Below are positions 5,501 through 22,516 of a stretch of 22,516 bases of DNA, piece after piece. The position numbers and the translations under genes are program-made. Numbering within the stretch: position 1 is the first letter of the stretch; each line of letters starts with the position of its first letter. The notes beneath the pieces were generated by a model. That model made no database searches and was not told where the DNA came from. It worked only from the letters and a program-made list of their open reading frames with translations. Source of the stretch: a virus. The stretch lies in the IMG/VR virus record IMGVR_UViG_3300042691_020318, positions 1-22,516 of that record. One strand, given 5' to 3'.

Positions 5501-5629
5501 TTGGCCAACACTGTTTTCATGCCAGAGTTAGTGCGAGATTCAGGCGAGGTGTTATATATACAGAACAGTACTGCAATCACTCGCACTGCAAACAATCAAG
5601 AACAAATTAAATTCATAATTGAAGTTTAA
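2567..5629 (+). CDS. T4 gp8-like baseplate wedge protein with long repeat-rich C-terminal extension
   Basis: A 1020-residue protein; ATG at 2567 with a weak GGA seven bases upstream. The first ~150 residues follow the layout I recall for T4 gp8: an aromatic strand with FAGKSSAW (about 17-27), a helix, then ALPR, a VFKCIDNANGAPSTVEP segment, and DGYTWRYLYTIG (about 129-140), comparable to gp8 VYRCLD and DGYVWEYLFEI. Many marine T4-like phages have this kind of protein, usually annotated only as a virion structural protein. T4 gp8 is about 334 residues and forms part of the baseplate wedge; here some 850 further residues follow, rich in Val, Thr, Ser, Asn and Gly and containing short beta repeats with a V-x-G-(T/S)-F core. 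It lies between another baseplate-type gene and the DUF4815 gene, which fits a wedge role. The homology call is from memory of gp8, not from an alignment. Confidence 0.75.
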   Translation: MLTDFKEYLRNNTKQLFYVFAGKSSAWANEASPTAANVSLQALQNDVYHNLLFGKRLTDSDVAYALPRVTYNVSAQTVYSNYDITANNNLGSYTITSNNHVFKCIDNANGAPSTVEPSFPSTIPFKTSDGYTWRYLYTIGTNDSNKFSTATFVPITTNNSIANSAVPGPVEFISVSNGGSSYSAYHTSNIVSVINSTAIVIANTASNTTNIYKDSSIYIRGNYGTSQVVKIASYDGAAKIVSLTSPLALRLQLDINANTYSGIIAAGNRLTQETLVGTIATHIGEPSAGDTIVFYDNDGNYSNATIVDASTTTIRMNRVPEANGAAFDSDYAWRIGAGVAQSGTVSVANATTLNVTGTSTTFTTAVSVGNYIRISNRVRRVASITNNTLLATDIAFGNAFTSNAWIKETSAGYFSNVEVQTANATVEAADINSYLITLGSITGSFTTGEQVMQTNNTSVTAYGTVTYANTTKLYVSNTQGSFVSTVNVVGSSSNATATIATNGNGYVYIESTPRIIANSATGNWYSGKAFTYDGNVAVGNVTVVTFKNFPDQTFAYSISPTVVITGDGSGAAAYSVINTSSNSVYSVVVTNSGSNYTFANATILANTLYGSNASLSVRLGPLSGSGVDVARELGTNAYIITATFGNGYNEGYAFPINGSYRTVGIISDPSFANLSFTISSFLRKRLTLTNLSGSFTLNEIVYQPNTAAAGIVVSSNTTTVDIDRISGTFISSTANDNIKGMISSVTANVTAVTNVVFSVSNTSQVIAQDVTDATATPTAANTTVLTVTNVHGLFLSSNSTLTANDIAAGARAAVYDSTTNTYALISSIGSSRRPTNFTPNSFTQLARITLTGVVGTFTNNEMVTQASQTGNGYVYNTLDRDLQISSVSGTFVIGDKIIQNTSSANAVVISSNSTHLKLTDVNGTFQVGNTIATVGGSGASANVANIFNVLQLYNVSGNFVVGSDVITGATSNATGTPSLANTVFMPELVRDSGEVLYIQNSTAITRTANNQEQIKFIIEV
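3586..3792 (+). repeat. Beta-module copy 2 of 3 (GTVSVANATTLNV type)
   Basis: This segment of the gp8-like protein reads SGTVSVANATTLNVTGT, then TTFTTAVSVGNYIRI, then VASITNNTLLA. It matches the modules at 197-400 and 7366-7600 in order and spacing of the conserved Gly, Thr and Asn residues. Confidence 0.6.
3893..5470 (+). repeat. Recurrent V-x-G-(T/S)-F beta repeats, spacing often exactly 34 codons
   Basis: The motif (V/I/L)-x-G-(T/S/N)-F-x-x-x-(G/N)-(E/D) recurs. Its Gly codon begins at 3893, 4004, 4643, 4745, 4940, 5129, 5231, 5333 and 5435. The steps 4643-4745, 5129-5231, 5231-5333 and 5333-5435 are each exactly 102 bases. Between motifs a Val/Ser-rich strand and an S-N-(S/T)-T turn recur. 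The regular period suggests a stack of small beta domains. A single related copy (MGTFYMGESVYQ) is in the next gene near 10267. Confidence 0.7.
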
Positions 5630-5635
5630 GGTAAA

Positions 5636-8600: not shown

Positions 8601-11494
8601 ATCGTGTTAATAGACTTGAATACTACACCAGCCTATCTCTTCTCGAAAAGACTGCTGCTGATCTATTGATTGTTAATGCGTCTGGTGCTGAGCGATTCAA
8701 GAATGGATTCTTGGTAGATCCGTTTACTGGGTTTGATATCTCTGATACTGATAATTCAGAGTTTAATATATCTATTGATAAGAATAAAACAGAAATTCGT
8801 CCTGTTACACGCAGAACATATGTCGACATGGTGTACTCAAATACGCTGTCAACAAATACTCAGCTGACAGGCGAGATGGTAACACTACCATACACTTCTA
8901 ATTCTTACATTAATCAACCGTTTGCGTCAAAGGCACGCAACTGCGTTGAAAACATCATCTGGCAGTGGAAGGGTAACGTAATACTTGATCCTTCTTCTGA
9001 TACCACACCTGATGTTCTAATTGGCGCTGATGTTATTGTTGCTAACCCAGGGTTAGCTAACTGGACTTCAAACACTATTGCTAATACATGGGCAACAGCA
9101 TGGGGTGATTGGCGTGTAACATCAACGGGTCTGTTTGGTAATCCTAATGGATTTACACCAAACACTACTACATCTGATGTTGCAACTAGATCTTCTGTGT
9201 CAGAACAGCTTAGAAACAGTACAGCTCTAAGCAGCCAGGCTGTGTTTACTGACGGTGAGTTTATAGATGATATCTCGATTCAGCCGTTCGTGCGTGCACG
9301 TCTAGTGCGCTTCCATGGTGTCTCGATGAAGCCTAACACGCGCGTATATCCATTCTTTGATGGTGTTAATGTATCTGTATACTGCACACCGACAAATTCA
9401 AGTTACGTAGCAACTGGCTCAATTAATGGTACACTTACAACTGATTCAAGCGGTAACGTTTACGGAACCTTTATGATTCCTGCCAATACATTCAAGAGTG
9501 GCACTCGCCTGTTTGTATTAGCGGACGTTACAGATATTAGCGCTAGTGTACCTACAACCGTATGCTCAGCACAATATATCGCATCTAACCAGCTAATCAC
9601 TCGTCACAGAATTCGTGTACCTGAGGTAGCACAAACTACAACAAATCCACCTGTGGAAGAATTCACAGACCTTGGAGGTAATGGTAGTGGTGATGGTGGA
9701 GGAGGTGATGGTGGCGGTGGCGGTGATGACCCAATCTGTCAGTCATTCTTCATTAATGAAATGCCTGGTGTAATTTCAGGTGTACATATTTCAAAGATCG
9801 ATGTATTCTTCCAGGCAAAAGACGACGTCTTTGGTGTAGAAATGCAAGTACGTGAAGTAGAGAACGGGTTCCCTACAACACGTATCGTACCGTTCGGTAG
9901 AAAGCTTCTACAGCCATCTGAAGTAAATATCTCTGCAGATGCATCAGCAGCTACAACCTTTGAATTTGATTCTCCTCTCTTTCTTTCTTCAGACAAAGAA
10001 TATTGCTTTGTTGTAAAGCCGGTTGGTAATTGCCCGAACTATTGGATCTGGGTTGGTGAGCTCGGTCAGCCAGACGTAGCATCTGGTGTGCCAATTTACG
10101 ATAACAACTCAACTGGTGTTCTATTTACATCATCAACAAATCGTGTATGGACTCCATTCCAGACAGAAGATATCAAGTTTAACATCTACCGCGCAACAAT
10201 GTCATCTGCAGTAGGTAATGTTGTCTATACCAACCGCGATGCGGAATACCTAACCGTTGCTAACACAATGGGTACATTCTACATGGGTGAGAGTGTATAT
10301 CAGTCTAATAACGTAGTTAGCCCTAATGCAACATCAACCAACACATCTACAATTGTTGCGGTTGGTAATGCATCAGCTAATGCACAGACAGCATTTAGCA
10401 CAAACACTTATGTCTATCTGATTGGTTCAAACACAGCCAAGGTTAAGGTCGTATCATCTGTACCAAACACAACGCACATTGTTCTAACAACCAACGCAGA
10501 AGTAAATTCATCTAATGATGGTATGCTAGGTGTGTTGCGTGGTAATGGTAATCTAACCGCGAAGTTTGATTACATTGATACCTCAAACACTAAGGTAAAT
10601 CTTATCGATACAACAGCAAACAGCACTGTAACATTTACTACTGGTACATACCTAATTGGTGGTACGTCTGGTGCATATGCAAACATCTCTTCTATTGATA
10701 ATATTACATATTCTGTTGTTGTACCTCAATTTGGAGAACTTCTACCTGCGCAGGCACAAATTGCATGGAACATGAAGGGTTACTCAAACAGTGGCACGCA
10801 GGATAGTGCATGGCGTAGAGTAACACTAGATAATGAATCAGAACTATATGATTACATGCGTCTTGTATATTCACGCTCGAATGAGCTTAATTCACTAAGC
10901 GGTAATAAGTCACTACAGATTCGTGGTGACATGTATACAAGCAACGTAAAAGTTTCACCAATCGTTGATAATGTTAGATCTACAGTCCTGGTTATTGAGA
11001 ATCTGATTACTACATCTTCAAATACAACCGGTGAAGACACAACTACTGGTACAGCAATTTCAAAGTATATTTCTAAGAAAGTTGTACTAGCTGACGGTCA
11101 GGATGCAGAAGATCTTAAAGTCTACATCGCAGCATATCAGCCTTCTGGTACAGCTGTGCGCGTATTCTGTAAGCTACTTCATAACGATGATCCAGAAGCA
11201 TTTGATAATAAGGCTTGGACAGAGATGACCAATCTGTCGACAGGAATTTACTCTTCTGTTACAGATCCAACAGATCTAAGAGAATTTGAGTATGGTCTAC
11301 CATCAACAAATGCTACTGCAACATCAGCATTCCTTAATGCTACAAATTCAAATATTGTAAAGTATACAAGCGCTGATGGTTCAGTATATAATGGTTACAA
11401 GACGTTTGCGATTAAGTTAGTTCTTCAGTCAGATACAGGACCTCATATCGTACCTCGCGTTGGTGATCTACGAGCAATCGCCGTTCAGGTGTAA
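5636..11494 (+). CDS. DUF4815-type giant virion structural protein (baseplate/tail)
   Basis: A 1952-residue protein starting at ATG 5636, six bases after the previous stop, with a short TAAGG just upstream. The N-terminus (NFYRVLFRPSVAVQTREL, then QSILQDQVEKFGRHVFRDGSVV) is the hallmark of the DUF4815 family in marine T4-like phages. Other family landmarks follow in order: RFTMRDIGVIDDRVNRLEYY at about 975-1000, KPNTRVYPFFDGVNV at about 1235-1255, a Gly/Asp-rich linker at about 1347-1365, a CQSFFINE...IDVFFQAKDD domain after it, and a C-terminal domain with KYISKKVVLADG near 1810. It carries one GTIAITAGQTNV module near residue 577 and one GTF-type repeat near 1545. The family's exact position in the virion is unknown to me; the gene order suggests a baseplate or fibre-attachment part. 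It is longer than most family members I recall. Confidence 0.88.
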   Translation: MGLDTNLNTPPFYDDFNANDNFYRVLFRPSVAVQTRELNQAQSILQDQVEKFGRHVFRDGSVVEGCALSFDSDYSYCKLQDAYSNGVSLTVSDLMGKRIVNSSNLVSIVVNYADGLVSQSPDLKTIFVKYLNTGTYGNGSPQSAYTANDVLTIQSNTAPYINLGTVSVYTTNDSIGTGYALSTSEGVVFQKGFFVRVEPHTTIVSKYSNQPNGIFVGFKTSEQIITSDIDQSLLDNAADAPGAGAPGAHRLKLTANLVIRYANTTTSNTDNFFSIVDFYDGGPSAIRSDPAYAALGRELARRTYEESGNYIINPFIITSNSSTSNTQQLNVNIDGGLGYIMGYRVEQRGRRSISVSKGIDVNYVNNEIVTATGGNYLLVNEIGGKFNFKNLVNISLRSAYANGVDSAANTSNLIAISAPGSEIGTATIKSIEHDSGTYGDANAVFKLYLTNIKMTSGQSFANVKSVYTSTGGIGFADVTAASDNTVLSDSNFGKLVFKLGRTAIRDLRDVANNNLSTFVYKAQKDITFQTNGTATFSPDAGATGGTETFPYSVGALSSAQKQEDWIAVATATGRSANLTGTIAITAGQTNVTGTSTTFASDFSVGDWILASQSVTPAEEEYRRIVSITNNTFLTVSAAFTYAHAAGNTYAQYIPNGAWFNLHSRSNTTVNITSSTAARIDLNKTYTGTIPATVYFPLQRAAASPRTKTVNKTRYVKIDCSNNAANSVGPWCLGLPDVYNVAGVYVGNSVTGYVETNTDRTSAFELDPGMKDDYYDLSYLRIKPGSGLTLNSVSRVLVKLNHFTHSTATGAGFFDVESYPVDDANTANVSAITTQEIPIFRSPSTTEVVDLRDAIDFRPTAANTAVSTNVIASATINPSTTTTFTVDSFGSYVPRPDTNFSTAFSYYLGRKMKLYIDSQGVVSTSNGVPGSVTPPAEREGSLTIATLTLPPYPTLSQTEARTYSRPDYSINIDIPKNRRFTMRDIGVIDDRVNRLEYYTSLSLLEKTAADLLIVNASGAERFKNGFLVDPFTGFDISDTDNSEFNISIDKNKTEIRPVTRRTYVDMVYSNTLSTNTQLTGEMVTLPYTSNSYINQPFASKARNCVENIIWQWKGNVILDPSSDTTPDVLIGADVIVANPGLANWTSNTIANTWATAWGDWRVTSTGLFGNPNGFTPNTTTSDVATRSSVSEQLRNSTALSSQAVFTDGEFIDDISIQPFVRARLVRFHGVSMKPNTRVYPFFDGVNVSVYCTPTNSSYVATGSINGTLTTDSSGNVYGTFMIPANTFKSGTRLFVLADVTDISASVPTTVCSAQYIASNQLITRHRIRVPEVAQTTTNPPVEEFTDLGGNGSGDGGGGDGGGGGDDPICQSFFINEMPGVISGVHISKIDVFFQAKDDVFGVEMQVREVENGFPTTRIVPFGRKLLQPSEVNISADASAATTFEFDSPLFLSSDKEYCFVVKPVGNCPNYWIWVGELGQPDVASGVPIYDNNSTGVLFTSSTNRVWTPFQTEDIKFNIYRATMSSAVGNVVYTNRDAEYLTVANTMGTFYMGESVYQSNNVVSPNATSTNTSTIVAVGNASANAQTAFSTNTYVYLIGSNTAKVKVVSSVPNTTHIVLTTNAEVNSSNDGMLGVLRGNGNLTAKFDYIDTSNTKVNLIDTTANSTVTFTTGTYLIGGTSGAYANISSIDNITYSVVVPQFGELLPAQAQIAWNMKGYSNSGTQDSAWRRVTLDNESELYDYMRLVYSRSNELNSLSGNKSLQIRGDMYTSNVKVSPIVDNVRSTVLVIENLITTSSNTTGEDTTTGTAISKYISKKVVLADGQDAEDLKVYIAAYQPSGTAVRVFCKLLHNDDPEAFDNKAWTEMTNLSTGIYSSVTDPTDLREFEYGLPSTNATATSAFLNATNSNIVKYTSADGSVYNGYKTFAIKLVLQSDTGPHIVPRVGDLRAIAVQV
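7366..7600 (+). repeat. Beta-module copy 3 of 3 (GTIAITAGQTNV type)
   Basis: Within the DUF4815 protein: LTGTIAITAGQTNVTGTS, then TTFASDFSVGDWILA, then VSITNNTFLTVSAAFT. It is the closest of the three to copy 1, sharing AIT-x-GQTNV. See the entries at 197 and 3586. Confidence 0.65.
9675..9731 (+). other. Gly/Asp-rich interdomain linker
   Basis: About 19 codons almost entirely Gly with some Asp, Asn and Ser, lying between the fibre-like middle part and the CQSFF domain of the DUF4815 protein. It probably acts as a flexible hinge. At DNA level it is a short GGT/GGA/GGC run and so prone to length change. Confidence 0.6.
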
Positions 11495-11700: not shown

Positions 11701-12858
11701 ATGTCCGTTGTAATTACCCCGATTGATGTTAGTAATACATCGTTTACTTTCGGCTCTTGGGTTGCAAAAACAAACACTATTATCGATTTCATATCATCTA
11801 ACGCTGTATCGCTAGATTCAACTTCTGGTGGTTCTGTTACAACAGGTAATGGTGTAGTTAATGGAGTCTTCTCTATTACTACATTAGGTGTTTCTACCCT
11901 GCGTGGCGGTAACGTATCAGCTTCTGCGCCGATGAATGTAACCACTAATACAGTGTTTATTAACGGTGCAAATACAACACTATCTGTTAATAATGATGTA
12001 GTTACTAGTAACGTCGCGACCAGAATTAACAGCACACTAACAGTAACATCGGTTGCTAATCTACAATCTACTTTAAATGTTAATGGTGCAGTTAATGTTA
12101 CAAACAGCGTAACTGTTAATGGCACACTAACTGGTAATGGCGCAGTAACATTTACTACTACACTAGCAGTTAATACTTCTGTTACTGTCGGTAATTCTAC
12201 CGGTAACGTAGTTATTAATAGCACTGCTATCAACATTGGCGGTAATATTATCAACAGCACATCTTCTGGTTCTTCTGCAGATATTTCTGCAAACTCGATT
12301 ACAGTTGGTGCTAACGTCAATATGAATACGACGTCTACGCGCGTCGGCAATTCAACAATAATTGGCGATAGAGTTACTGTTGGTAATTCTACTGTTAACA
12401 GCTTTGTCACTCAAACTAGTTTAGTTACTGGTAATACAACAGCTAACCTTACTATCAATTCAACTACATTGCGCGTAGGTAATTCAAGCGTTAACACTGC
12501 TATTAATACATCGTCAATTACAACCTCTTCGGTTATTGACGGTATTGGTAATGTAAGAGATATTCCACAAAATCCACAGACAACAAGCTATTCATTACTT
12601 GTTACTGATGCTGGCAAACACATCTCTATTACAACTGGCGGTGTAACTGTACCAGCTAGCGTATTCTCTGTCGGACAAACAATATCAATTTATAATAACT
12701 CCGGTAGTGATCAGACTATCACTCAAGGTGGAAGCGTTACTTTAAGATTTGCTGGTACAGCAAACACAGGTAACAGAACATTAGCACAATATGGTTTAGC
12801 TACTGTTCTATGTGTTGGAAGCAATATATTTGTGATTTCTGGAGCAGGTCTATCTTAA
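11701..12858 (+). CDS. Tail fibre protein with VGNST repeats and a conserved C-terminal domain
   Basis: A 385-residue protein; ATG at 11701 with AGGA at 11686-11689. The N-terminus (MSVVITPIDVSNTSFTFGSW, then KTNTIIDFIS) is a fibre start seen in related phages and probably attaches to the baseplate or another fibre. The middle (about 80-285) is Asn/Thr/Val/Ser-rich, with VGNST, INST and ANV motifs spaced as in a triple-stranded beta fibre. The last ~100 residues, from RDIPQNPQTTSYSLLVTDAG, resemble a fibre-end domain seen in several phages (PQ-(N/S)-x(4)-Y-x-L-x-x-x-D-A-G-K-H-I and, near the end, GNRTLAQYGLATVL). The gp38-like adhesin gene follows directly, so this may be the fibre that carries the adhesin. 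The repeats are close kin of those in the giant fibre at 16759. Confidence 0.78.
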   Translation: MSVVITPIDVSNTSFTFGSWVAKTNTIIDFISSNAVSLDSTSGGSVTTGNGVVNGVFSITTLGVSTLRGGNVSASAPMNVTTNTVFINGANTTLSVNNDVVTSNVATRINSTLTVTSVANLQSTLNVNGAVNVTNSVTVNGTLTGNGAVTFTTTLAVNTSVTVGNSTGNVVINSTAINIGGNIINSTSSGSSADISANSITVGANVNMNTTSTRVGNSTIIGDRVTVGNSTVNSFVTQTSLVTGNTTANLTINSTTLRVGNSSVNTAINTSSITTSSVIDGIGNVRDIPQNPQTTSYSLLVTDAGKHISITTGGVTVPASVFSVGQTISIYNNSGSDQTITQGGSVTLRFAGTANTGNRTLAQYGLATVLCVGSNIFVISGAGLS

Positions 12859-12859
12859 T

Positions 12860-13639
12860 ATGAGTATCATGCAGATGATGCTCGCGGGTAGCTACAGACG
12901 CATCAATTTAACAGTTGCTGCAAATACTCGCGATTACAATATTTTTACACAAGCAGGATCTCCCGCTACTGATGTTGATGTTTACGTAACAGTCAACTCT
13001 GGTATTATAATTGGTTCAACCTCAACAGCTACTCCTGCACTAACGACAGGCAGTGGTTGGACACAACGTTCACGCATCTTTCTAATTAACAATGGCACTA
13101 TCATGGGACGTGGTGGTGCTGGTGGTATCGGTGGTTCTAATGGTAACGGTTTTGGTGGCAGCGCTGGCGGTACAGCTATAGATCTAACCAAAGACATTAC
13201 TATCACTAATAACTCTGCAATTTACGGCGGCGGTGGCGGTGGTGGCGGAGGCGGTGCAAGCGGTTCAAACGCCGGCGGTGGTGGTGGTGGCGGTGGAGCT
13301 GGTGATATTGGAGGTACAGGCGCCGCTGGAGGAACACCAAGCGGAAATGCCGGCGCAGCAGGTACAAGTTCAGGCCCCGGCAACGGTGGAGCGGGTCTTT
13401 CATGGTCGCAATCTAGTGGTGGTAAAAATCCAGTAACTACGTCGGGTGTTTCTGGTGCTGGTGGTAATGGTGGTAGCTTTGGCGCCGCAGGTAGTTCAGG
13501 TACTGCAGCTACAGGTGATGGTACTCTTTTTTCTGGTTCTGGTGGTGGTGCTGCTGGTAAGGCTATTAATTTAAACGGTTACACTGCTACATTTACAACT
13601 GGTGGTACTAACCCTAATGTACTAGGAGCGATCTCGTAA
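12860..13639 (+). CDS. Glycine-rich receptor-binding adhesin, T2/S16 gp38-like
   Basis: A 259-residue protein; ATG at 12860, one base after the previous stop, with a distant AGG. An alternative ATG lies three codons in. After ~70 N-terminal residues comes IFLINNGTIMGRGGAGG, then a Gly-rich block with runs of ten (123-132) and eight (139-146) Gly residues, and a C-terminus reading GGAAGKAINLNGY ... VLGAIS. T2-type gp38 has, as I recall it, LNIGNVTMYGRGGNGG, then RINNGGAIAGGGGGG, then GGAAGAAVIG ... NVGAIY, and is about 260 residues, so order, motifs and length agree. In that family the Gly-rich part forms a polyglycine-II helix bundle whose loops bind outer-membrane receptors. The N-terminus does not look like T2 gp38, so it may dock on a different fibre. 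Confidence 0.78.
   Translation: MSIMQMMLAGSYRRINLTVAANTRDYNIFTQAGSPATDVDVYVTVNSGIIIGSTSTATPALTTGSGWTQRSRIFLINNGTIMGRGGAGGIGGSNGNGFGGSAGGTAIDLTKDITITNNSAIYGGGGGGGGGGASGSNAGGGGGGGGAGDIGGTGAAGGTPSGNAGAAGTSSGPGNGGAGLSWSQSSGGKNPVTTSGVSGAGGNGGSFGAAGSSGTAATGDGTLFSGSGGGAAGKAINLNGYTATFTTGGTNPNVLGAIS
13226..13560 (+). repeat. Polyglycine-II-like Gly-rich block
   Basis: Codons for long Gly runs broken by short Ala/Ser/Asn/Pro loops (SGSNA, TPSGNAG, SWSQSSGGKNP, FGAAGSSG). In gp38-type adhesins the loops between Gly runs are the variable receptor-contact segments. The run of GGT/GGC/GGA triplets also creates long open frames in other phases that are not genes. Confidence 0.65.
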
Positions 13640-13646
13640 TTATACT

Positions 13647-14087
13647 ATGAATATTCGTTATGAAAAATTTCATCCTATTGAAGATACACCCGCTGAGTAT
13701 TTGTATAATATAGTATGGGCTGAGATATTACAAAAAGAGCCCACAATTGAGAATATTAGAGTGATTACTTCGACTATGGAGGCGTGGGTTGCTTTTATTG
13801 ATAAGAAGCCTGTAGCAATTCAAGTAGTAGAACCAGTAGCAAATACTGCCAGAGTTAATCAAATAATCTCGTGGACTACACCTTATATGAGAGGTCAGGG
13901 TCTATTCAAAAAATTAAATGCTGTTGTTGATAGAGATTTATCCGCGCGCGGTTATACGCATTATATCTCATATATAATCAGCACAGAGAAAGAAATGTTA
14001 CAGGCTGTTTTAAACCGTGGCGGTAGAATAACAGAGTATAAATGTGTTAGACCGATCTATACTCCGGAGCAAATTAGTAATGAGTAA
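13647..14087 (+). CDS. GNAT-family N-acyltransferase-like protein
   Basis: A 146-residue protein; ATG at 13647, seven bases after the adhesin stop. The nearest Shine-Dalgarno-like sequence (AGGAG, 13624-13628) is too far to be convincing, so coupling to upstream translation is likely. Residues 79-97 read PYMRGQGLFKKLNAVVDRD: the R-G-Q-G core (82-85) is the acetyl-CoA pyrophosphate-binding motif A of GNAT enzymes, followed by its helix. The preceding strand VNQIISWTTP, the later HYISYIIS strand and an R-G-G-R-I-T segment fit the rest of the fold. The substrate is unknown. Being between a fibre adhesin and other enzymes it could acylate a fibre, a host surface sugar or a small molecule; nothing in the sequence decides this. 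Its stop overlaps the next start. Confidence 0.72.
   Translation: MNIRYEKFHPIEDTPAEYLYNIVWAEILQKEPTIENIRVITSTMEAWVAFIDKKPVAIQVVEPVANTARVNQIISWTTPYMRGQGLFKKLNAVVDRDLSARGYTHYISYIISTEKEMLQAVLNRGGRITEYKCVRPIYTPEQISNE
14066..14069 (+). promoter_or_regulatory. GGAG ribosome binding site deciding the start at 14080
   Basis: GGAG lies 10 bases before the ATG at 14080, within ACTCCGGAG. It favours this start over the in-frame ATG at 14044, which would overlap the GNAT gene by 44 bases and has no such site. The same ACTCCGGAG precedes the giant fibre start at 16759. Confidence 0.6.
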
Positions 14088-14682
14088 TATAGTATATACA
14101 CCCCCTTCAGCTCATGATCCTAACTTAATCATGGCTATTAATGATAAGTGTGAATATCTGGGATGGGTTGATAAGACTTCTCCTGCAGTTTATAAGCAAG
14201 TATTTGTATCTCCACCTAATGAGGACGAATGGAGATATGATGAGGTTCGCCACTGCTGGTACCGCGTATGGCCTGTCGATAAAGATGGTAACATAACAAC
14301 TGTAAATCATGCAGTTGATCTAGTTGATGTTCCGCCACCTGCAGGTAATATGAAATGGAATTCTGAGATTTCGCAGTGGGAAGATATTATACCTATTGAG
14401 CGTCAAAAAATAGAATATCGCCGCGAAGCAGCACGTATGGTTGATTTTATTTTGAGAATGGAATGCGACTCAGATGAAGATTTTCATAATGAAGTTGTTC
14501 TGATGCGCAAACATCTAGAGCAGTATTGGGCTGAAAGAGGTAAAATTAACACATCTAAAGCAAGTAAGCAATGTGCGTTGTACCTAGAATCACTAAACGA
14601 CGAAGCCAATATTATTAGTGATGACCTTAAAGCTGCTCGTATTCAATTTCTGGTTAATATTAAAGATATAGAAAAAATCTAA
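14080..14682 (+). CDS. Trp-rich phage protein, possible tail-fibre assembly chaperone
   Basis: A 200-residue protein. I choose ATG 14080 (MSNIVYTPP...), overlapping the GNAT stop in ATGAGTAA. The N-terminal half is beta-like and has two similar pieces, DEWRYDEVRHCWYRVWPVD and MKWNSEISQWEDI, in which Trp residues alternate with acidic ones; such W-x-x-x-x-x-x-W elements are common in small proteins next to phage fibres. The C-terminal half from about residue 105 is helical and highly charged, ending in KDIEKI. I do not recognise a named family. Small proteins of this kind near fibre genes are often fibre assembly factors, hence the suggestion, but it could equally be a virion part. The four bases at its end lead straight into the next gene's ribosome site. 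Confidence 0.6.
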   Translation: MSNIVYTPPSAHDPNLIMAINDKCEYLGWVDKTSPAVYKQVFVSPPNEDEWRYDEVRHCWYRVWPVDKDGNITTVNHAVDLVDVPPPAGNMKWNSEISQWEDIIPIERQKIEYRREAARMVDFILRMECDSDEDFHNEVVLMRKHLEQYWAERGKINTSKASKQCALYLESLNDEANIISDDLKAARIQFLVNIKDIEKI

Positions 14683-14685
14683 AGG
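14681..14685 (+). promoter_or_regulatory. AAAGG ribosome binding site for a TTG start
   Basis: AAAGG overlaps the preceding stop and sits six bases before TTG at 14692. No in-frame ATG or GTG lies nearby; the GTGs at 14686 and 14696 are out of frame. This supports TTG as the real start of the asparagine-synthetase-like gene. Confidence 0.6.
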
Positions 14686-14691
14686 TGAACT

Positions 14692-15780
14692 TTGCGTGTA
14701 ATTGATTACGCAGCTACAAAAGTTGCAGAAATTGGTTTTGATTTAAAATTAATTGATGATAATGAGTTGTTATTTTTAAAAAATACCGCTCATCAATTCT
14801 CACAGATTGATCGCACATTAAGTTTTAATATAGGACCTAACGCGACACCTTTGACAAAACTACCAACAGGTGTTGAGAAGCGCTCTTTGGAAGAAATATG
14901 TAATGAAGCTGCGCGCGACCTAATATCCTTAAACGACAATCTAAGCGTATACTGGAGTGGAGGAATAGACTCCACGTTAGTATTGATATCTCTGCTAAAA
15001 AATAACATAGATATCAATAAGTTAACAGTCGTGTTATCATCGTTCTCAATAGCAGAATACCCAGATTTCTACAATGAATTTATACGAGATAAGCTTAAGG
15101 TTCGTAAAGTAGGAGCTTCTATATTCTCGCATATGAATCCTGAAGAGATTATAGTAACCGGAGAGCATGGCGATCAGATTTTCGGCTCAGATAATATATT
15201 TCTATATGAAGATTTAAATCGTTTCAAAGACGTCTATACAGATTCGTGGGAAGATGGCATTATTTTACGTACAGGTGTTAAGAAATCTGTTGAATATATT
15301 GAACCATTAATTCGAAATGCACCGTTTAAGATTAAGAACGCATTTGATTTGTACTGGTGGTATAATATTACATGCAAATGGCAGCATGTACAGCTTAGAA
15401 TGTCATCACATTACACAAAAGAACAAATGCCTTTATATTTTAAAAACGTCAAACATTTTTATAATACAGATGCTTTTCAGCGGTGGTCATTAAATGAAGA
15501 TAACCACCGTAATTTAAAATGTCGTGATACTATAACCTCCTATAAATTTGAAGCAAAACGTATCATTCGTGAATTCACTAAAGATACTGCATACGAACAG
15601 AATAAACTTAAACTAGGATCATTACCTACGCATGTGGGTAAACCTTATCTTGTTCTTCTTGAAGATTATACGCGAATTTTATGCGATGCAGATAAGTATC
15701 GACATAATTTCTCAGCTGAAAAATTCAGAGAAGAGAACGGGTTCGAGTTTAAGGATTTATTCAATCGTGATAGTAAATAA
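14692..15780 (+). CDS. Asparagine-synthetase-like ATP pyrophosphatase lacking the glutaminase domain
   Basis: A 362-residue protein starting at TTG. Residues 89-95 (SGGIDST) are the PP-loop that binds the ATP pyrophosphate, and residues 156-167 (TGEHGDQIFGSD) match the S-G-E-G-x-D-E-(L/I)-F-G motif of the AsnB synthetase domain. In that family this domain adenylates a carboxylate, and ammonia, or another amine in relatives such as beta-lactam synthetase and lasso-peptide cyclase, then forms an amide. The N-terminal Cys-nucleophile glutaminase domain (normally ~200 residues) is absent: only ~70 unrelated residues precede the synthetase core. The enzyme would thus need free ammonia, a partner, or a different amine. 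The C-terminal part is rich in aromatic and basic residues (FDLYWWYNITCKWQHVQLRM) and may define the substrate. Its 3' end overlaps the cupin gene by 14 bases, so the two are probably translated together. Confidence 0.8.
   Translation: MRVIDYAATKVAEIGFDLKLIDDNELLFLKNTAHQFSQIDRTLSFNIGPNATPLTKLPTGVEKRSLEEICNEAARDLISLNDNLSVYWSGGIDSTLVLISLLKNNIDINKLTVVLSSFSIAEYPDFYNEFIRDKLKVRKVGASIFSHMNPEEIIVTGEHGDQIFGSDNIFLYEDLNRFKDVYTDSWEDGIILRTGVKKSVEYIEPLIRNAPFKIKNAFDLYWWYNITCKWQHVQLRMSSHYTKEQMPLYFKNVKHFYNTDAFQRWSLNEDNHRNLKCRDTITSYKFEAKRIIREFTKDTAYEQNKLKLGSLPTHVGKPYLVLLEDYTRILCDADKYRHNFSAEKFREENGFEFKDLFNRDSK
15751..15755 (+). promoter_or_regulatory. AAGGA ribosome binding site for a GTG start
   Basis: AAGGA lies 11 bases before GTG 15767 inside the end of the synthetase gene. 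The in-frame ATGs further up (15632, 15686) would overlap that gene by 95-149 bases and have no clear site, so GTG 15767 is preferred. Confidence 0.5.
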
Positions 15781-16405
15781 TGATGAAAAGTACTTTTTAA
15801 ACGGGCATGCATGCGAAAAGATTAATCGCACTAGAAGTATTAAAGGTCCATGCACTGCTTTTGGTGTGGTCTTAAACGATAAAGCGATTATTAACGATCG
15901 TAAAATAGTATCTCCTAATGAGTATTTCTGCATAGGAGTATCAGAAGGTGAAGAGCTTTTAATTACTACATGGCCAACAACTATAGTAGCACTCTTTACA
16001 GTTAGAAACTACGTTAGAAAAAATAATGTGCTAGCTGGTACCTGGAATGAGCTCAGGGGTGATCAGCTTTATATTGACGGTTGTACTGATACACTTCTAA
16101 TCTGCCCATCTAAGCTTGGTGATCCGTGTCTTAATGCGTTGTATGTTGAGCCAAACACAACTCAGACAGAACATACGCACCCTTCATTACGCTTTGGAGT
16201 GATTGTAGCAGGTGCAGGCTCTATGTTTAAAGAAGGTGTAGAATATAGTCTGCTGCCCGGAACTGTATGGGTTATAGAACCCAATACTAAGCACTATTTT
16301 AAAACAGCTGATAAAATGTTAACTACCATAGCTTATCACCCAGATAGTGATTGGGGCCCGACAGATCAAGTACACCCCATGCTAAATAAAACAAATATCA
16401 TATGA
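15767..16405 (+). CDS. Cupin-fold protein
   Basis: A 212-residue protein if started at GTG 15767 (14-base overlap with the upstream gene); longer versions from ATG 15686 or 15632 are possible. Residues ~128-180 form a cupin: EHTHPSLRFGVIVAGAG (metal-type His at 136 and 138) and LLPGTVWVIEPNTKHYF (third His at 176). In the usual motif H-x-H-x(3)-E-x(6)-G the Glu is replaced by Arg here, so metal binding would use three His residues or be lost. The first ~110 residues (SPNEYFCIGVSEGEELLITT) could be a diverged first barrel, making a bicupin; this is a weak inference. Cupins range from sugar epimerases to oxygenases and binding proteins, so the reaction cannot be named. Coupling to the synthetase suggests a shared pathway. 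Confidence 0.72.
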   Translation: MIVNNDEKYFLNGHACEKINRTRSIKGPCTAFGVVLNDKAIINDRKIVSPNEYFCIGVSEGEELLITTWPTTIVALFTVRNYVRKNNVLAGTWNELRGDQLYIDGCTDTLLICPSKLGDPCLNALYVEPNTTQTEHTHPSLRFGVIVAGAGSMFKEGVEYSLLPGTVWVIEPNTKHYFKTADKMLTTIAYHPDSDWGPTDQVHPMLNKTNII

Positions 16406-16425: not shown

Positions 16426-16758
16426 GTGGCTGTTAAACTAAACATCACTATTGATCAGGGTTCAGACTTCTCTGTTAACCTAGATCTCACTAATGAAACA
16501 ACTGAACAACCTATTGACTTAACAGGTTACACTGGACGAGCACAGTTTAGAAAGAGTGTATACTCAACAAACTCAACTAGTTTTGGAGTAAATCTCGGTG
16601 GTAACACTGGCGTGCTTACACTATCTTTACCAGCAGCATCAAGCTCAAACGTGTATCCAGGTCGATATCTTTATGATATTGAAATAGTATCTCCATCAAA
16701 CACTGTAACACGTGTGGTTGAAGGTATAGTAACAATTACTCCGGAGATTACCAAATAA
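16426..16758 (+). CDS. Small BppU-like virion structural protein (110 aa)
   Basis: GTG start at 16426 with a strong AAGGG at 16413-16417, eight bases away. The sequence (KLNITIDQGSDFSVNLDL, then PIDLTGYTGRAQFRKS, then YPGRYLYDIEIVSPSN and a final VEGIVTITPEITK) is a single beta-sandwich typical of a small protein found beside fibres in many tailed phages; the fold resembles the N-terminal domain of BppU/DUF2479 baseplate proteins. It is probably a virion component linking a fibre to the baseplate. It ends directly before the giant fibre gene (TAAATG), so the two are co-translated and may act together. Confidence 0.72.
   Translation: MAVKLNITIDQGSDFSVNLDLTNETTEQPIDLTGYTGRAQFRKSVYSTNSTSFGVNLGGNTGVLTLSLPAASSSNVYPGRYLYDIEIVSPSNTVTRVVEGIVTITPEITK
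16743..16747 (+). promoter_or_regulatory. GGAGA ribosome binding site for the giant fibre
   Basis: GGAGA, again within ACTCCGGAG, lies 11 bases before ATG 16759. Both genes preceded by ACTCCGGAG begin ATGAGTAAT. Confidence 0.55.
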
Positions 16759-19700
16759 ATGAGTAATACGAATATTCGTGTAACATTATCTTCTCCGACT
16801 CCAATCGCGATTAAGTCATCAGGTGGCGTTGTAACCCTCTCTCAGCTGAATGATGTTAATGTTGCCTCAAAGACAGACGGTCAAGTTCTAACCTATTCAA
16901 ATGGAATGTGGGTTGCTGCAGATGTAGGGTCATTCTCTATCAATACAGCAGCTGCTATTGCTGTCAGTAACGGACTTTCAAAAGCTGATTCTGGTTCTAA
17001 CACTACAATCTCGATTAATGACACTACTGTTACACCAAATAGCTACGGTAACTCTACTCATTTTCCTACGTTTACGGTTAATCAGCGCGGCCAGTTAACT
17101 GCTGCTGGCACCCAAGCTGTACCAAATACTGGTACAACGTATGTTATTGGCACATCATCAAATACTTCTAGCGCGAACGTCCGCTTAACTGACGCAGCAA
17201 ATACGAATACTGATGTTAAGTTTATTGGTGCTGGTGGCACAACTGTTACATCGAACGGTACAGTCATCACTATTGAATCGCAAACAACGAGCGATAATAA
17301 TACAATTTACGATCTATCTGTATCCGCTAACGATACGATAGCTAATATTACATTAACCGGTAACGATAGCACAACAGATGTAGTTAGAGTGACTGGTAAT
17401 GGTGCTGTAAATGTTAGCTCAAATGCTACGCATATTATCGTAACAGCCCCTGTCGTAACAGATACAGATACAACTTACACTATTAACACTCCTGCGAATA
17501 CAACTGCAGGCGCTAATGTAAGATTAACATCTTCTGGTAATGCTAATACAGATGTAAAAATTATCGGTGCAGGAACTGTAAACGTACAATCAAACGGTTC
17601 AGTAATTACTGTCACGGGAACTGGTGGTACTGGAACTACTTATGATTTTGCGCTGGGTGCTGCAAACACCACAACCGCTAACTTAGCATTAATTGGTTCT
17701 GATGCATCTAATGATGTGATCCGTATTACTGGTAATGGTATTGTTAACGTTAGCTCTAATGCGACACATATCGTTGTATCTGCACCAGCGCCAACCGACA
17801 ATAATACGACTTATGATTTAACACTTGGCGCTGCTAACACAACAGTAGCAAACATCGCTCTATCTGGATCTGATTCTTCCAACGATGTAATTAGATTTAC
17901 AGGTAATGGCGCTGTAAACGTCATCTCGAATGCTACACACGTCATTGTATCTGCTCCAGTAGTTGTAGATACCGATACAACATATACACTCGGATTTACA
18001 CAGAATAATACTAGTGCAAACGTACGTCTGACTTCGTCTGGTAATGCTAATACAGATGTAAAGTTTGTCGGCACTGGTCTAGCAACTGTTAATTCTAACA
18101 GCTCTGTAGTTGCTGTACATGTACCAGCACCAGCTGATAATAATACAACATATGATCTAACGCTTGGCGCTGCGAACACAACTGTCGCTAATTTAACATT
18201 AGTAGGCTCAGATGCAACAAATGATCTGGTAAGATTTACTGGCAATGGTGCTGTAAATGTTATTTCAAATGCTACGCATGTTATCGTATCTGCTCCCGTT
18301 GTAACAGATACCGACACAACGTATACAATTTCTGCAGTCACTACAACCGGCGGTGCAAACGTACGCCTGACTTCATCTGGTAATGCAAACGACGATCTAA
18401 AGTTTACTGGCACTGGTACAGTAACAGTAACTCGTACAGATGTAGATACAATTACTATTGACGGCGCGGCGGCAGTCTCTGCTCCTGGCGGTGCAAACAC
18501 GAATATTCAGTATAATGATTCTGGTGCACTTCAAGGTGCTGCAGGATTTACATTTGATGAAACTACAAATAACGTAACTCTTGCAAATACATTTACAGCT
18601 GCAACTATTAATGCTACACTAGGCGCCAACGTTGGCGCTAACGTATTAATTAATACTTCTAGTATTTTTGTTGGCAACTCAACAGCTAATCTAACTACAA
18701 ATTCTGGTTCAGTCGTAGTAGCAAATAGCACTAATACTGCAACTCTAAATCCTGTTAGCTTGACTATCGGTACAACTGTAGCTAATACAACTGTTGTACA
18801 GGCAGCTAATATTAACTCTACCGGTAATATTAACGGCGTATCGGCTATAATGACGACTAGCGCTAATGTGGGAGCTAACGTCTCTCTTTCAACAAGCGCG
18901 CTTAATATCGGTAATTCTACAGCGAACGCTGTTACTCAAAGCACATCTATTACTGTTGCAAACACAACAAACACTGTTACAATTAACCCTATCAGCGTCA
19001 CTATTGGTACTACAGTAGCTAACACAACAGTTGTTCAGTCAGCAAACATCAACTCAACAGGTAACGTAAACGGCGTGCAGGGTGTATTCACTACAGCTGC
19101 TAACGTCGGCGCTAACGTTTCTCTATCTACATCTAGAGCATTTGTAGGAAACTCAACTGCTAACGCTGTTGTTCAATCTACATCAATTGCAGTCGCAAAC
19201 AGCACTAATACAGCAACCCTGAATCCTATTAGTTTAACTATCGGTACTACAGTTGCAAACACTACTGTAGTGCAGGCAGCAAATATCAATTCGACAGGCA
19301 ACGTTAACGGTGTCAGTGTTACAGCTACTACTTCAGCAAATGTCGGTGCCAACGTAAATCTCTCAACATCTCAACTGTTTATTGGTAACAGCACTGTTAA
19401 CGCAGTTGTTACTCAATCAACTGGAGCGTGGACCAACAGCACAGTTAATACGCAGGTTACTATTGGTTCTGTAGCAGTTGCTAACTCTACTCTAGCATCT
19501 AATCTACAAAACGGCCAGTTAAATATTGGTGCTAATAGCATAATCAATACAACAGCTGTTTATGAGGGTAACTCAACAGTCAACGCTGTCATGAGACAAG
19601 CGGGTCTTGTAGTTGCTAACAGCACTATCTCCACTAATGTACAGACAGGCGCTATTAATATTGGCGCTAACAATAATCTAAATGCGACTGCACACTTTAT

Positions 19701-22516
19701 TGGTAACTCAACTGTAAATACTAATATTTCTGCGACAAGCATTGCTGTTGCAAATAGCACTAATACAGCTACCTTAAATCCTGTCAGCTTGACTATTGGT
19801 ACTACTGTAGCCAACACAACTGTTGTACAATCTGCGAATATTAACTCAACAGGCAATGTTAACGGTGTATCTGCAGTTATGACGACTAGCGCAAATGTCG
19901 GCGCTAACGTCAGCCTAAGCACAAGCCAGTTAAACATTGGCAATTCAACTGTTAATTCAGTAACTACACAGTCAAGTGGCGCGTGGACTAACTCTACCAC
20001 AAATACTCAAGTTGCTATTGGCTCTGTTGCTGTAACTAACTCAACCGTATCTGCAAATATGCAGATTGGTCTGGTTAACGTTGGTAATTCAACAGTTAAT
20101 GTTGTTGTCAATAGCAGCGCAGTAGCCATTAATACGATTAATGCCGCTACAGTCGCAAACCGCACTCAGGTAGCAAATAATAATACACTGGTTGGCACAC
20201 GTGGTAGATTAAATCTAATTCAAGGTACTAATATTACACTTGAAGCTTCTGACGATTCTACTGGTGGTCAGATAAACGTAATTATTAATAGTTCAGGTGG
20301 TGCGTCAGTCGGCGGCTCCAACACACAATTACAGTTTAATGATTCTGGTGTAGCAAATGGCTCAGCTGGGTTTACATTTGATAAGACAACTAACAATGCT
20401 ACCGTAGGTAACACTCTAACAGTTCCAGTAATGAACGCAACTACTGGTGCAAATGTTGGTGCAAATGTTAATATTACAACCTCTGCTGTTCAAATTGGCA
20501 ACAGCACTGTTAATACTAACATTTCGGCAACAAGCCTGGCTGTAGCAAATTCGACAAATACTGTTACGATCAATCCAGTTAGTGTTACTATCGGAACAAC
20601 CGTTGCTAATACGACTGTTGTTCAATCTGCTAATATCAATTCGACAGGCAATGTTAATGGTGTTAGCGTTCTGGCAACAACTTCTGCTAACGTTGGTGCA
20701 AACGTAAGCCTATCAACTAGTGCATTAAATGTAGGTAATTCAACTGCAAATGCAGTCCTGCAATCGACTTCAATGACGGTTGCAAACACAACTAATACAG
20801 TCACGATTAATCCAATCAGTGTTACTGTTGGCACTAGCGTAGTTAATACGACTGTAGTACAAGCTGCAAATCTTAACTCGACTGGTAACGTTAATGGTGT
20901 TAGTGTTGTCGCGACAACTTCTGCTAATATTGGCGCCAACGTAAATCTTAGCACATCAGCTCTATTCATTGGCAACTCAACAGTTAACGCTGTAGTTAAT
21001 CAAACAACAGGCGCTTGGACTAATTCAACTGCAAACACTCAAGTAACTATCGGTTCTGTTGCAGTCGCTAACTCTACAGTTGCGTCTAACCTACAAATTG
21101 GTCAGCTAAACGTCGGCGCAAATTCTGTTATTAATACAACAGCAGTCTACGAAGGTAACTCAACAGTTAATACTGTTATGAGGCAGGCGGGTCTTGTAGT
21201 TGCTAACAGCACTATATCTACTAACGTACAAACAGGCGCTATTAATATTGGTGCAAATAACAGTCTGAATGCTACAGCACATTTCCTTGGTAATTCGACT
21301 GTAAATACAAATATTCTTTCGACGAGTATTGAGGTTGCAAACAGCACTAACACTGCGACACTGAACCCAACTAGTCTGACAGTAGGTACGACTGTAGTTA
21401 ATACTACTGCAGTTCAGTCTGCAAATATTAACTCTACTGGTAATGTTAACGGTGTTTCTGCAAACTGGACTACTAGCTCACTAGTTGGCGCAAACGTTAT
21501 TGCAAATACAACAGCAGTGTTTGTCGGCAATTCTACAGTTAACGCTGTAGTTAATCAGACAACTATTACGATTGCTAACAGCACGATTACTAGCAACCTG
21601 CAAACAGGCCAGCTGAATATTGGTGCAAATTCCGCGGTTAACTCTACTGCTGTATTTACAGGTAACAGTACAGTTAATGCTATACATAATCAGGCTGGTA
21701 TCGTTGTAGCAAATTCAACGATTTCTACAAACGTACAAACAGGTGCGATTAACGTCGGCGCTAATAATAATCTAAACTCTACAGCACATTTCATCGGCAA
21801 CTCATCTGTAAATACTATTACATCTCAAGCAGGTTTGGTGGTTGCTAACTCAACTGTGCAAACCAACGTACAGATTGGTCTAGTTAACGTTGGTAATTCA
21901 ACAGTTAATGTTGTTGTTAATAGCTCAAGTGTTTCAATTAATGGTACAAACGCTGCAACTCTAAGCAATAGAGATTCAGTTGCAAATAACAACACTCTGA
22001 TCGGAACACGCGGCCGAATCAACTTTATTCAGGGAACAAATATTACTCTGAATGTATCAGATGATTCTGGTGGCGGACAGGTTAATGTTCAAATTAGTGC
22101 TTCTGGAGGTGGAACTCCTGGAGGAGCGAATACGCAAATCCAGTATAACGATAGCGGAACATTTAATGGTTCGGCAGGCTTCACTTACGATGAAGTTTCC
22201 AATAATGTTACTGTTGGAAACACATTAACTGCTGCGATTGTTAACGCTACAACTGGTGCTAACGTTGGTGCTAACGTATTACTAACAACATCGCAAGTAT
22301 TTGTCGGTAACTCTACCGCAAATGCGGTTCTGCAAAGTACTTCCTTTGCAGTTGCAAATTCAACAAATACAGTAACAATCAACCCAATTAGTGTCACTGT
22401 CGGAGCATCGGTAGTTAATACTACTATTATTGCAGTTGGTGCTAATAATCAGTTGAATGCAACTGCACATCTTATTGGTAACTCGACTGTTAATACAGTT
22501 ATTAACAGTACTTCGA
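16759..22516 (+). CDS. Giant repeat-built tail fibre protein, 3'-truncated by the window
   Basis: ATG 16759 directly follows the previous stop. I read this frame without a stop to the last base, so at least 1919 residues are encoded and the end lies outside. Residues 1-125 form a fibre head: LSQLNDVNVASKTDGQVLTY and NSYGNSTHFPTFTVNQRGQL are patterns common at the start of phage fibres. Next come eight ~56-residue units (17134-18483), then super-repeats from 18487, 20311 and 22120, each starting GG-(A/S)-NT-x-(I/L)-Q-(Y/F)-NDSG; the two complete ones end GTRGR(L/I)N(L/F)IQGTNIT plus a Ser-Asp-Asp-Ser segment. The super-repeats contain no Cys and few charged residues, and are dominated by Asn, Thr, Ser, Val and Ala, as expected for a trimeric beta-helical shaft. 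Probably a long host-recognition fibre whose receptor-binding tip lies beyond the window. Repeats related to its own occur in the fibre at 11701. Confidence 0.88.
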   Translation, partial: MSNTNIRVTLSSPTPIAIKSSGGVVTLSQLNDVNVASKTDGQVLTYSNGMWVAADVGSFSINTAAAIAVSNGLSKADSGSNTTISINDTTVTPNSYGNSTHFPTFTVNQRGQLTAAGTQAVPNTGTTYVIGTSSNTSSANVRLTDAANTNTDVKFIGAGGTTVTSNGTVITIESQTTSDNNTIYDLSVSANDTIANITLTGNDSTTDVVRVTGNGAVNVSSNATHIIVTAPVVTDTDTTYTINTPANTTAGANVRLTSSGNANTDVKIIGAGTVNVQSNGSVITVTGTGGTGTTYDFALGAANTTTANLALIGSDASNDVIRITGNGIVNVSSNATHIVVSAPAPTDNNTTYDLTLGAANTTVANIALSGSDSSNDVIRFTGNGAVNVISNATHVIVSAPVVVDTDTTYTLGFTQNNTSANVRLTSSGNANTDVKFVGTGLATVNSNSSVVAVHVPAPADNNTTYDLTLGAANTTVANLTLVGSDATNDLVRFTGNGAVNVISNATHVIVSAPVVTDTDTTYTISAVTTTGGANVRLTSSGNANDDLKFTGTGTVTVTRTDVDTITIDGAAAVSAPGGANTNIQYNDSGALQGAAGFTFDETTNNVTLANTFTAATINATLGANVGANVLINTSSIFVGNSTANLTTNSGSVVVANSTNTATLNPVSLTIGTTVANTTVVQAANINSTGNINGVSAIMTTSANVGANVSLSTSALNIGNSTANAVTQSTSITVANTTNTVTINPISVTIGTTVANTTVVQSANINSTGNVNGVQGVFTTAANVGANVSLSTSRAFVGNSTANAVVQSTSIAVANSTNTATLNPISLTIGTTVANTTVVQAANINSTGNVNGVSVTATTSANVGANVNLSTSQLFIGNSTVNAVVTQSTGAWTNSTVNTQVTIGSVAVANSTLASNLQNGQLNIGANSIINTTAVYEGNSTVNAVMRQAGLVVANSTISTNVQTGAINIGANNNLNATAHFIGNSTVNTNISATSIAVANSTNTATLNPVSLTIGTTVANTTVVQSANINSTGNVNGVSAVMTTSANVGANVSLSTSQLNIGNSTVNSVTTQSSGAWTNSTTNTQVAIGSVAVTNSTVSANMQIGLVNVGNSTVNVVVNSSAVAINTINAATVANRTQVANNNTLVGTRGRLNLIQGTNITLEASDDSTGGQINVIINSSGGASVGGSNTQLQFNDSGVANGSAGFTFDKTTNNATVGNTLTVPVMNATTGANVGANVNITTSAVQIGNSTVNTNISATSLAVANSTNTVTINPVSVTIGTTVANTTVVQSANINSTGNVNGVSVLATTSANVGANVSLSTSALNVGNSTANAVLQSTSMTVANTTNTVTINPISVTVGTSVVNTTVVQAANLNSTGNVNGVSVVATTSANIGANVNLSTSALFIGNSTVNAVVNQTTGAWTNSTANTQVTIGSVAVANSTVASNLQIGQLNVGANSVINTTAVYEGNSTVNTVMRQAGLVVANSTISTNVQTGAINIGANNSLNATAHFLGNSTVNTNILSTSIEVANSTNTATLNPTSLTVGTTVVNTTAVQSANINSTGNVNGVSANWTTSSLVGANVIANTTAVFVGNSTVNAVVNQTTITIANSTITSNLQTGQLNIGANSAVNSTAVFTGNSTVNAIHNQAGIVVANSTISTNVQTGAINVGANNNLNSTAHFIGNSSVNTITSQAGLVVANSTVQTNVQIGLVNVGNSTVNVVVNSSSVSINGTNAATLSNRDSVANNNTLIGTRGRINFIQGTNITLNVSDDSGGGQVNVQISASGGGTPGGANTQIQYNDSGTFNGSAGFTYDEVSNNVTVGNTLTAAIVNATTGANVGANVLLTTSQVFVGNSTANAVLQSTSFAVANSTNTVTINPISVTVGASVVNTTIIAVGANNQLNATAHLIGNSTVNTVINSTS
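17134..18483 (+). repeat. Eight tandem ~56-residue beta units of two types
   Basis: Units begin at the TTY/TIY codons at 17134, 17302, 17470, 17635, 17806, 17977, 18145 and 18316, with a spacing of 165-171 bases. Type A (units 1, 3, 6, 8) has ANVRLT...N-(T/D)-D-(V/L)-K-(F/I). Type B (units 2, 4, 5, 7) has YDL...D-(V/L)-(V/I)-R and VNV-(S/I)-SNATH. The order is A B A B B A B A. The TTY...ANVRL...D-V pattern is known from fibres of other T4-like phages. Confidence 0.75.
18487..20310 (+). repeat. Fibre super-repeat 1 (608 codons)
   Basis: Starts GGANTNIQYNDSG, contains four 79-residue-type units (VAN(S/T)TNT... anchors at 18721, 18958, 19195, 19750; the first steps are exactly 237 bases), two GAWTNST units and shorter VGNST pieces, and ends with GTRGRLNLIQGTNIT at about 20194-20238. 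Confidence 0.75.
20311..22119 (+). repeat. Fibre super-repeat 2 (603 codons)
   Basis: Starts GGSNTQLQFNDSG and ends like super-repeat 1, but its interior differs: 79-residue-type anchors at 20545, 20782 (237 bases apart) and 21337, only one GAWTNST unit, and extra QTGQLNIGANS / AGIVVANST pieces near 21600-21850. The near equal length therefore hides a different module count. Confidence 0.75.
22120..22516 (+). repeat. Fibre super-repeat 3 (start only)
   Basis: Starts GGANTQIQYNDSG, then GFTYDEVSNNVTVGNTL as in the other two, one VANSTNTVTINP anchor at 22354, and is cut by the window edge. After that anchor it moves to GANNQLNATAHLIGN sooner than super-repeats 1 and 2 do. Confidence 0.7.

Follow-up and report, generated by a model that had tools for sequence, protein, structure and literature searches.

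The hypervariable 'host recognition cluster' of pelagimyophages lies between VrlC and gp14 and mixes fibre genes with enzyme genes; lipopolysaccharide (LPS)-related genes are common in this slot of SAR11 phages, and LPS and radical SAM genes are the contents stressed in the available part of the published account (PMC7029224). Asparagine-synthetase-like enzymes amidate, cyclise or nitrilate ribosomal peptides, as lasso cyclases such as McjC, TsrC, ScdTA and PesC do on peptide carboxylates, and PesC acts only after Asp beta-hydroxylation (PMC13060819). The locus described here is a cassette of four genes at positions 13,647 to 16,405 of a 22,516-nt viral fragment (IMG/VR record IMGVR_UViG_3300042691_020318, positions 1 to 22,516; the whole 22.5 kb is called the window) from a T4-like myovirus of marine type. 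Its core is a PP-loop synthetase gene followed by a cupin gene. The two form a genuine recurrent unit in phages and bacteria, and in the window they lie among fibre genes, near a receptor-binding protein gene. Each enzyme family, phage 'asparagine synthase' database genes and, as far as the available part of PMC7029224 goes, the slot with enzyme genes were already known. The literature searched gave no account of the synthetase-cupin pair, of a partner family designated C4 or of the repeated placement beside adhesins.

The two core genes are as follows.

14692..15780, + strand: PP-loop synthetase with asparagine/beta-lactam synthetase C-terminal fold (SGGIDS at aa 89-94, GEHGD at aa 157-161, K307)
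15767..16405, + strand: cupin of 212 aa with GTG start (Cupin_2 match; metal ligands H136, H138 and H176; Shine-Dalgarno sequence AAGGA)

The start codon of the synthetase is TTG 14692, preceded by AAGGTG. Its score to Pfam Asn_synthase (PF00733) is 11.6 bits, below the cut-off of 21, and its assignment comes from a predicted structure and from conserved residues. An AlphaFold (AF2) model computed from 42 sequences has a predicted local distance difference test score (pLDDT) of 84.7 and a predicted template modelling score (pTM) of 0.88. The best structural match of aa 52-313 is beta-lactam synthetase 1mc1 (VIA Z 14.1, 197 residues, 3.2 A), followed by TsnB9 hydroxyamidotransferase, human asparagine synthetase (ASNS) and carbapenam synthetase with Z of 13.1, 12.6 and 12.4, respectively; Foldseek by itself gave misleadingly poor superpositions. 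GMP synthetase, LarE and NAD synthetase matched more weakly (Z about 8-9) and were rejected as identities. Sugar N-amidotransferases of WbpG type were absent among the structural match rows, no search being aimed at them. The motif SGGIDS and residues E158, D161 and K307 are kept across 131 relatives, with S, G, G, D and S of SGGxDS present in 127, 129, 128, 128 and 127 of them, respectively, and lysine at position 307 in 116 of 120. By alignment offset (448 to 306 in 1ct9, 448 to 312 in 1mc1), K307 occupies the position of K449 of asparagine synthetase B (AsnB) and K443 of beta-lactam synthetase, which we take to be the catalytic lysines of these enzymes.

Thus, the window enzyme resembles the C-terminal domain of AsnB and beta-lactam synthetase in fold, SGGxDS, GE..D and essential-lysine position, but it is paired with a cupin and differs in lacking the N-terminal Ntn glutaminase domain. 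The stretch before the synthetase domain is only about 50 residues long, the N-terminus reads MRVIDYAAT, and no glutaminase domain with a catalytic Cys was found there. On the model, it is solidly predicted to be a PP-loop enzyme of the asparagine/beta-lactam synthetase fold without a glutaminase domain. Since so short a stretch could not hold a glutaminase, the enzyme would, by analogy with the chemistry of the family, activate a carboxylate and take ammonia or another amine. The same lack makes it unlikely that the phage 'asparagine synthase' proteins are glutamine-dependent asparagine synthetases; entries of this name from uncultured phages in BFVD match the window enzyme structurally with E 3.9e-18. 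The only relative in annotated phages is Pseudomonas phage Cygsa01, which carries two synthetase copies directly after a Gly-rich adhesin; their label MnmA is unsupported (NCBIfam MnmA, E 0.2 only). A single-sequence scan with the synthetase gave no IMG/VR relatives and an alignment query was needed; the window synthetase aligned with the two Cygsa01 copies recruited 153, of which 80 loci were retained. In one of these relatives (L063:3-1814; numbers with L denote compared loci), the synthetase open reading frame (ORF) has in-frame 5' collagen-like GPTG repeats and may be a fusion to a fibre-like segment.

The start of the cupin is most plausibly GTG 15767 behind AAGGA, in place of 15632, giving a length like that of its relatives. 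The protein scores 30.8 bits to Cupin_2, over the cut-off of 27.2. An alignment of 12 cupin sequences recruited 477 IMG/VR relatives; H136, H138 and H176, an HxH...H metal site, are invariant in 99 of 99, and Y102, C106, R142, H191 and H203 are nearly so. Because of this invariant His triad, the cupin is likely to act as a metal enzyme or as a binding protein that depends on a metal. A cupin beside a possible GNAT gene recalls EctC and EctA of the ectoine pathway, and the cupin relative of L048 reaches 21.3 bits to Ectoine_synth (PF06339); this is, however, under the cut-off of 27, the window cupin reaches only 14.7 bits (E 0.037), and the window has no EctB and an extra synthetase. Among the loci read in detail, four cupin relatives (L096, L097, L099, L145) stand in the order ParB-like, cupin, PAPS-reductase-like PP-loop protein, ParB-like, as named by inspection.

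Synthetase and cupin genes lie at most two genes apart on the same strand in 73 loci, or 52 after removal of redundancy (27 viral, the window included, and 25 from genome assemblies), with frequent overlaps of 1 or 4 bp. The synthetase and cupin trees are correlated (Mantel r 0.24, 0 of 2000 permutations; phages only, r 0.31, 1 of 2000). Bacterial carriers include Tenacibaculum, Aquimarina, relatives of Lewinella, Planctomycetes, Verrucomicrobia and a Xanthomonadaceae metagenome-assembled genome, with varied and unrelated neighbours. Chromosomal synthetase-cupin operons make up L170-L214; in Flavobacteriia and relatives the two genes often have one for a conserved 127-aa protein in between. 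The third family, C4 (200-240 aa, e.g. in L048, L054, L057 and L072), is a frequent synthetase partner, often with 4-bp overlaps. A C4 profile grown from phage members collected 57 proteins, 49 of them directly beside a synthetase gene against a background of 9%; the one member tested had no Pfam match. Genes of Asp/Asn beta-hydroxylase type lie near synthetase and cupin in L050 and L072/L073.

The preliminary description had proposed that the three enzyme-type genes among the four together look like a small modification pathway. A narrower version of this holds, with a predicted ATP-dependent carboxylate-activating enzyme and a probable metal cupin as a coupled unit in the 52 non-redundant loci. 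The four-gene set as such does not recur: it was present in none of about 280 other loci, and homologues of its first two genes were not found where searched. Scattered or independent occurrence of the genes, which the description had named as speaking against a pathway, was partly found, as the synthetase occurs without the cupin, the cupin occurs without the synthetase in 19 of 36 judgeable loci (with it in 17; 13 more were unjudgeable), and each is also present at a distance from fibre genes and on bacterial chromosomes. That no phage system with this set has been described agrees with the literature searched.

The remaining genes of the cassette and its flanks are these.

5636..11494, + strand: VrlC baseplate protein, bounding the host recognition cluster on the left (phrog_358, E=0; 39.5% identity to Cr30 and 35.7% to the Rhizobium phage)
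11701..12858, + strand: fibre protein of 385 aa, 5' of the adhesin; a homologous region follows VrlC-gp65 in relatives
12860..13639, + strand: Gly-rich GP38-like adhesin or receptor-binding tail fibre protein, candidate substrate (phrog_10745, 3.6e-21; phrog_11439 'tail fiber protein', 5e-19; phrog_2056 'host specificity', 6.9e-8)
13647..14087, + strand: putative GNAT-type acyltransferase of 146 aa (motif RGQGLF only)
14080..14682, + strand: Trp-rich protein of 200 aa with 7 Trp (motifs KWNSEISQWED and EWRYDEVRHCWY), possible fibre-assembly chaperone
16426..16758, + strand: L-shaped tail fibre assembly or BppU-like beta-sandwich protein, flanking the insertion on the right (phrog_1084, 4.7e-28; phrog_3304, 6e-23)
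16759..22515, + strand: giant fibre-like ORF of at least 1919 aa, running off the contig (open frame to the end; composition)

For gp8 and VrlC (2567-11494), the nearest annotated phages are Caulobacter phage Cr30, Rhizobium phage RHph_I1_18 and Ochrobactrum phage OC, followed by pelagiphages. VrlC forms the left border, and 3' of it come a 65-aa virion protein (gp65-type), the 385-aa fibre protein, the adhesin, the four cassette genes, the fibre-assembly gene and the giant ORF, inside which the contig ends. To Pfam GP38 the adhesin has an E of 0.0048 only, under the cut-off. As the preliminary description had it, the four genes are co-oriented and overlapping or nearly so between fibre genes: the spacings are -8, +9 and -14 bp (negative values are overlaps), and the cassette begins 7 bp past the adhesin gene and ends 20 bp before the fibre-assembly gene. 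Its ORFs, all of 146-362 aa, are packed like an operon, and this packing together with the adjacency of synthetase and cupin in the 52 loci indicates an arrangement of more than chance. The G+C content is 0.362 in the cassette and 0.405 elsewhere in the window; at third codon positions it is equal, which gives no strong sign that the cassette is recently foreign.

For comparison of the slot, 80 IMG/VR contigs were picked by VrlC similarity. Relatives of the synthetase, cupin, GNAT and Trp-rich genes were found in 0 of 80, within the sampled DNA of contigs of which many are short, and many relatives without the cassette have the order VrlC-gp65-fibre-BppU with nothing between fibre and BppU. 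By gene order, the cassette is therefore best explained as having been inserted into a variable slot that corresponds to the host recognition cluster. The likeness lies in the position after VrlC and in the mixing of fibre and enzyme genes, but the available part of the published account shows no synthetase-cupin pair (PMC7029224).

Other phages also carry the synthetase next to tail genes; the division into tail and non-tail settings was made partly by reading of the sequences, with PHROG checks on L013, L016, L017, L030, L060, L074 and L183. In the T4-like L029 the order is adhesin, 115 aa, cupin, synthetase, gp8, VrlC. A pelagic podovirus-type group (L020-L044) has one or two Gly-rich adhesins, often the cupin, and a synthetase with a 200-aa extra N-terminal region. 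The synthetase lies directly 3' of the central tail fibre J in L030, beside long tail fibres in L060 and L074, in a baseplate J-type setting in L013/L018 and the Xanthomonas loci L194/L206, and between DctP-like and neck genes in L016; L183 is also counted among the tail settings. In L061/L065/L067/L068/L071/L076 the order is VrlC-gp65-fibre-x-radical SAM-c6-DctP-like-synthetase-BppU, and the synthetase occupies the same slot as in the window. The DctP-like gene of such T4-like phages codes for a TRAP solute-binding protein (PF03480, 7e-50) without apparent signal peptide, directly 5' of the synthetase (L061:7004-7948, L065:6807-7754, L076:6990-7937, L080:5981-6964), and is preceded by the small conserved protein c6 and, in some, by a radical SAM enzyme.

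The preferred explanation, to which a probability of roughly 0.4 is given, is that a carboxylate-activating maturation unit was recruited beside receptor-binding proteins and modifies the adhesin in the manner in which asparagine-synthetase-like enzymes act on ribosomally synthesised and post-translationally modified peptides (RiPPs). It draws on the position beside adhesin or fibre genes in several unrelated phage lineages, on the RiPP precedent and on the Asp/Asn beta-hydroxylase-type genes near the pair in L050 and L072/L073. Judged by homology, the synthetase would use ATP to adenylylate a carboxylate and pass it to ammonia or to a substrate amine, giving an amide, a lactam or a ligation, and the metal cupin would catalyse a connected reaction on that substrate. 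In the T4-like phage the unit would have entered between the adhesin and the fibre-assembly gene, accompanied by what may be an acyltransferase and a fibre chaperone. Gene position is what points to the neighbouring adhesin or fibre as substrate, and a side chain or the C-terminus of that protein may carry the target carboxylate, with the cupin acting at the same site; the acyltransferase and the chaperone, if real, would serve the same substrate. The RiPP enzymes belong to the same superfamily as the window synthetase and sometimes work with Asp beta-hydroxylation (PMC13060819), but in contrast to their systems the window has a phage fibre setting with no recognised precursor peptide or leader-binding domain, and the adhesin is a candidate substrate only. 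A special adhesin C-terminus was considered as the modification site and rejected: the ends of adhesins linked to the synthetase are often GA[TIV]S, but the GxAI...G tail is common to relatives without it.

Several observations weigh against adhesin maturation. Non-tail settings of the synthetase are about as frequent as tail settings, with exonuclease and PhoH, DNA polymerase, IscU/IscA or FabF-like neighbours. In L277 and L284, relatives that lack the enzymes, there are Gly-rich adhesins whose C-termini are similar; the enzymes are therefore not required for the adhesin. Pairs on bacterial chromosomes have no nearby fibre gene, and the correlation of the trees could stem from shared carriers. 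Slightly more tentative is a general form of adhesin maturation, in which several unrelated phage types would mature their adhesins with a RiPP-like toolkit (a glutaminase-free ligase and a metal cupin; elsewhere radical SAM, Asp-hydroxylase-type and 2-oxoglutarate (2OG) enzymes); the receptor would then be recognised through amide, lactam or conjugated residues unseen in sequence. If the unit does modify the adhesin, the fibre sequence by itself would not suffice to predict host range, and phage receptor binding would gain a new layer in post-translational chemistry.

Nearly as likely as maturation of the adhesin, and itself doubtful, is an auxiliary metabolic function, in which the pair builds a small molecule (e.g. 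amide- or lactam-containing) for host metabolism, signalling or stress, and the fibre position is an insertion hotspot only. The available part of the published account documents the slot as such a hotspot of enzyme genes (PMC7029224). The same pair stands alone on chromosomes of the bacteria named above, and some non-tail phage copies are grouped with several synthetase paralogues, a glyoxalase-type protein and a 2OG oxygenase in what looks like a small biosynthetic cluster (e.g. L040 and L051). This function leaves unexplained why many copies abut adhesin or fibre genes in unrelated phages, and no full pathway to a known metabolite is recognisable. Were a small molecule made, the pair would be an uncharacterised enzyme system that environmental phages share with bacteria of several phyla. 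In both cases the pair is well defined and testable: its two proteins have clear catalytic residues, relatives show a conserved partner family, and a cultured phage, Cygsa01, carries two of the synthetases. In two of the clusters (L040:3704-11435, L051:4926-11458), four synthetase paralogues and a divergent one without SGGxDS are accompanied by cupin, C4 and the glyoxalase-type protein.

Modification of the host surface seems unlikely. The cassette would acylate or amidate envelope sugars and block superinfection, like genes of the pelagimyophage cluster; the LPS-related genes common in the SAR11 phage slot (PMC7029224, available part) fit this, as do the epimerase, aminotransferase and related genes of the Mosig slot. 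The window has, however, no glycosyltransferase, sugar-nucleotide or transporter gene, and the synthetase fold is nearest to amino-acid carboxylate-activating enzymes, in a comparison without a test aimed at sugar amidotransferases. Action of the two enzymes on tRNA or DNA is very improbable: PP-loop enzymes often modify tRNA, and some cupin relatives do lie between ParB-like and PAPS-reductase-like PP-loop genes, but the fold fits asparagine/beta-lactam synthetases far above other PP-loop enzymes and no RNA- or DNA-binding domain was seen.

Three of the four genes had been described as enzyme-type; this stands for the cupin, by its Cupin_2 match, and for the synthetase, by its model and 131 relatives, while the GNAT assignment depends on a motif. 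The protein coded at 13647-14087 has no Pfam or NCBIfam GNAT match up to E 1 and no relevant PHROG match, and the case for it consists of RGQGLF and the surroundings. Its AF2 model from the single sequence (pLDDT 45.6) is too poor for structure search, and phmmer against the PDB found a GNAT at E 0.75 only, behind gamma-glutamyltranspeptidase entries. The DNA pattern of the motif gave two matches. Homologues were found neither in annotated phages nor, by single-sequence scan, in IMG/VR; the same kind of scan gave no IMG/VR relatives of the VrlC segment. In L072/L073 a match to the malonyl-CoA decarboxylase C-terminal domain (6e-6), which is presumably a GNAT-like fold, lies upstream of cupin-C4-synthetase, and it makes an acyltransferase partner plausible but unproven. 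The identity of the window gene as a GNAT-type acyltransferase is likewise unproven.

The start of the Trp-rich gene was corrected from 14044 to ATG 14080. Its protein had no homologues in IMG/VR by single-sequence scan and no Pfam, NCBIfam or relevant PHROG match. It was rejected as a C4 member, as it was not recruited among the 57 and its hhalign score of 12.3 is within that of shuffles (maximum 16.2). Its repeated W-x(n)-W motifs resemble, by eye, a protein beside the Gly-rich adhesin of L267, and a function as fibre chaperone is a guess by inspection only. The gp8-type baseplate protein (window 2567-5629) has 1020 aa, about twice the usual length of phrog_438, with a repetitive C-terminal extension, and the giant fibre-like ORF at 16759-22515 has recurring modules TGNGAVNV.SNATH.

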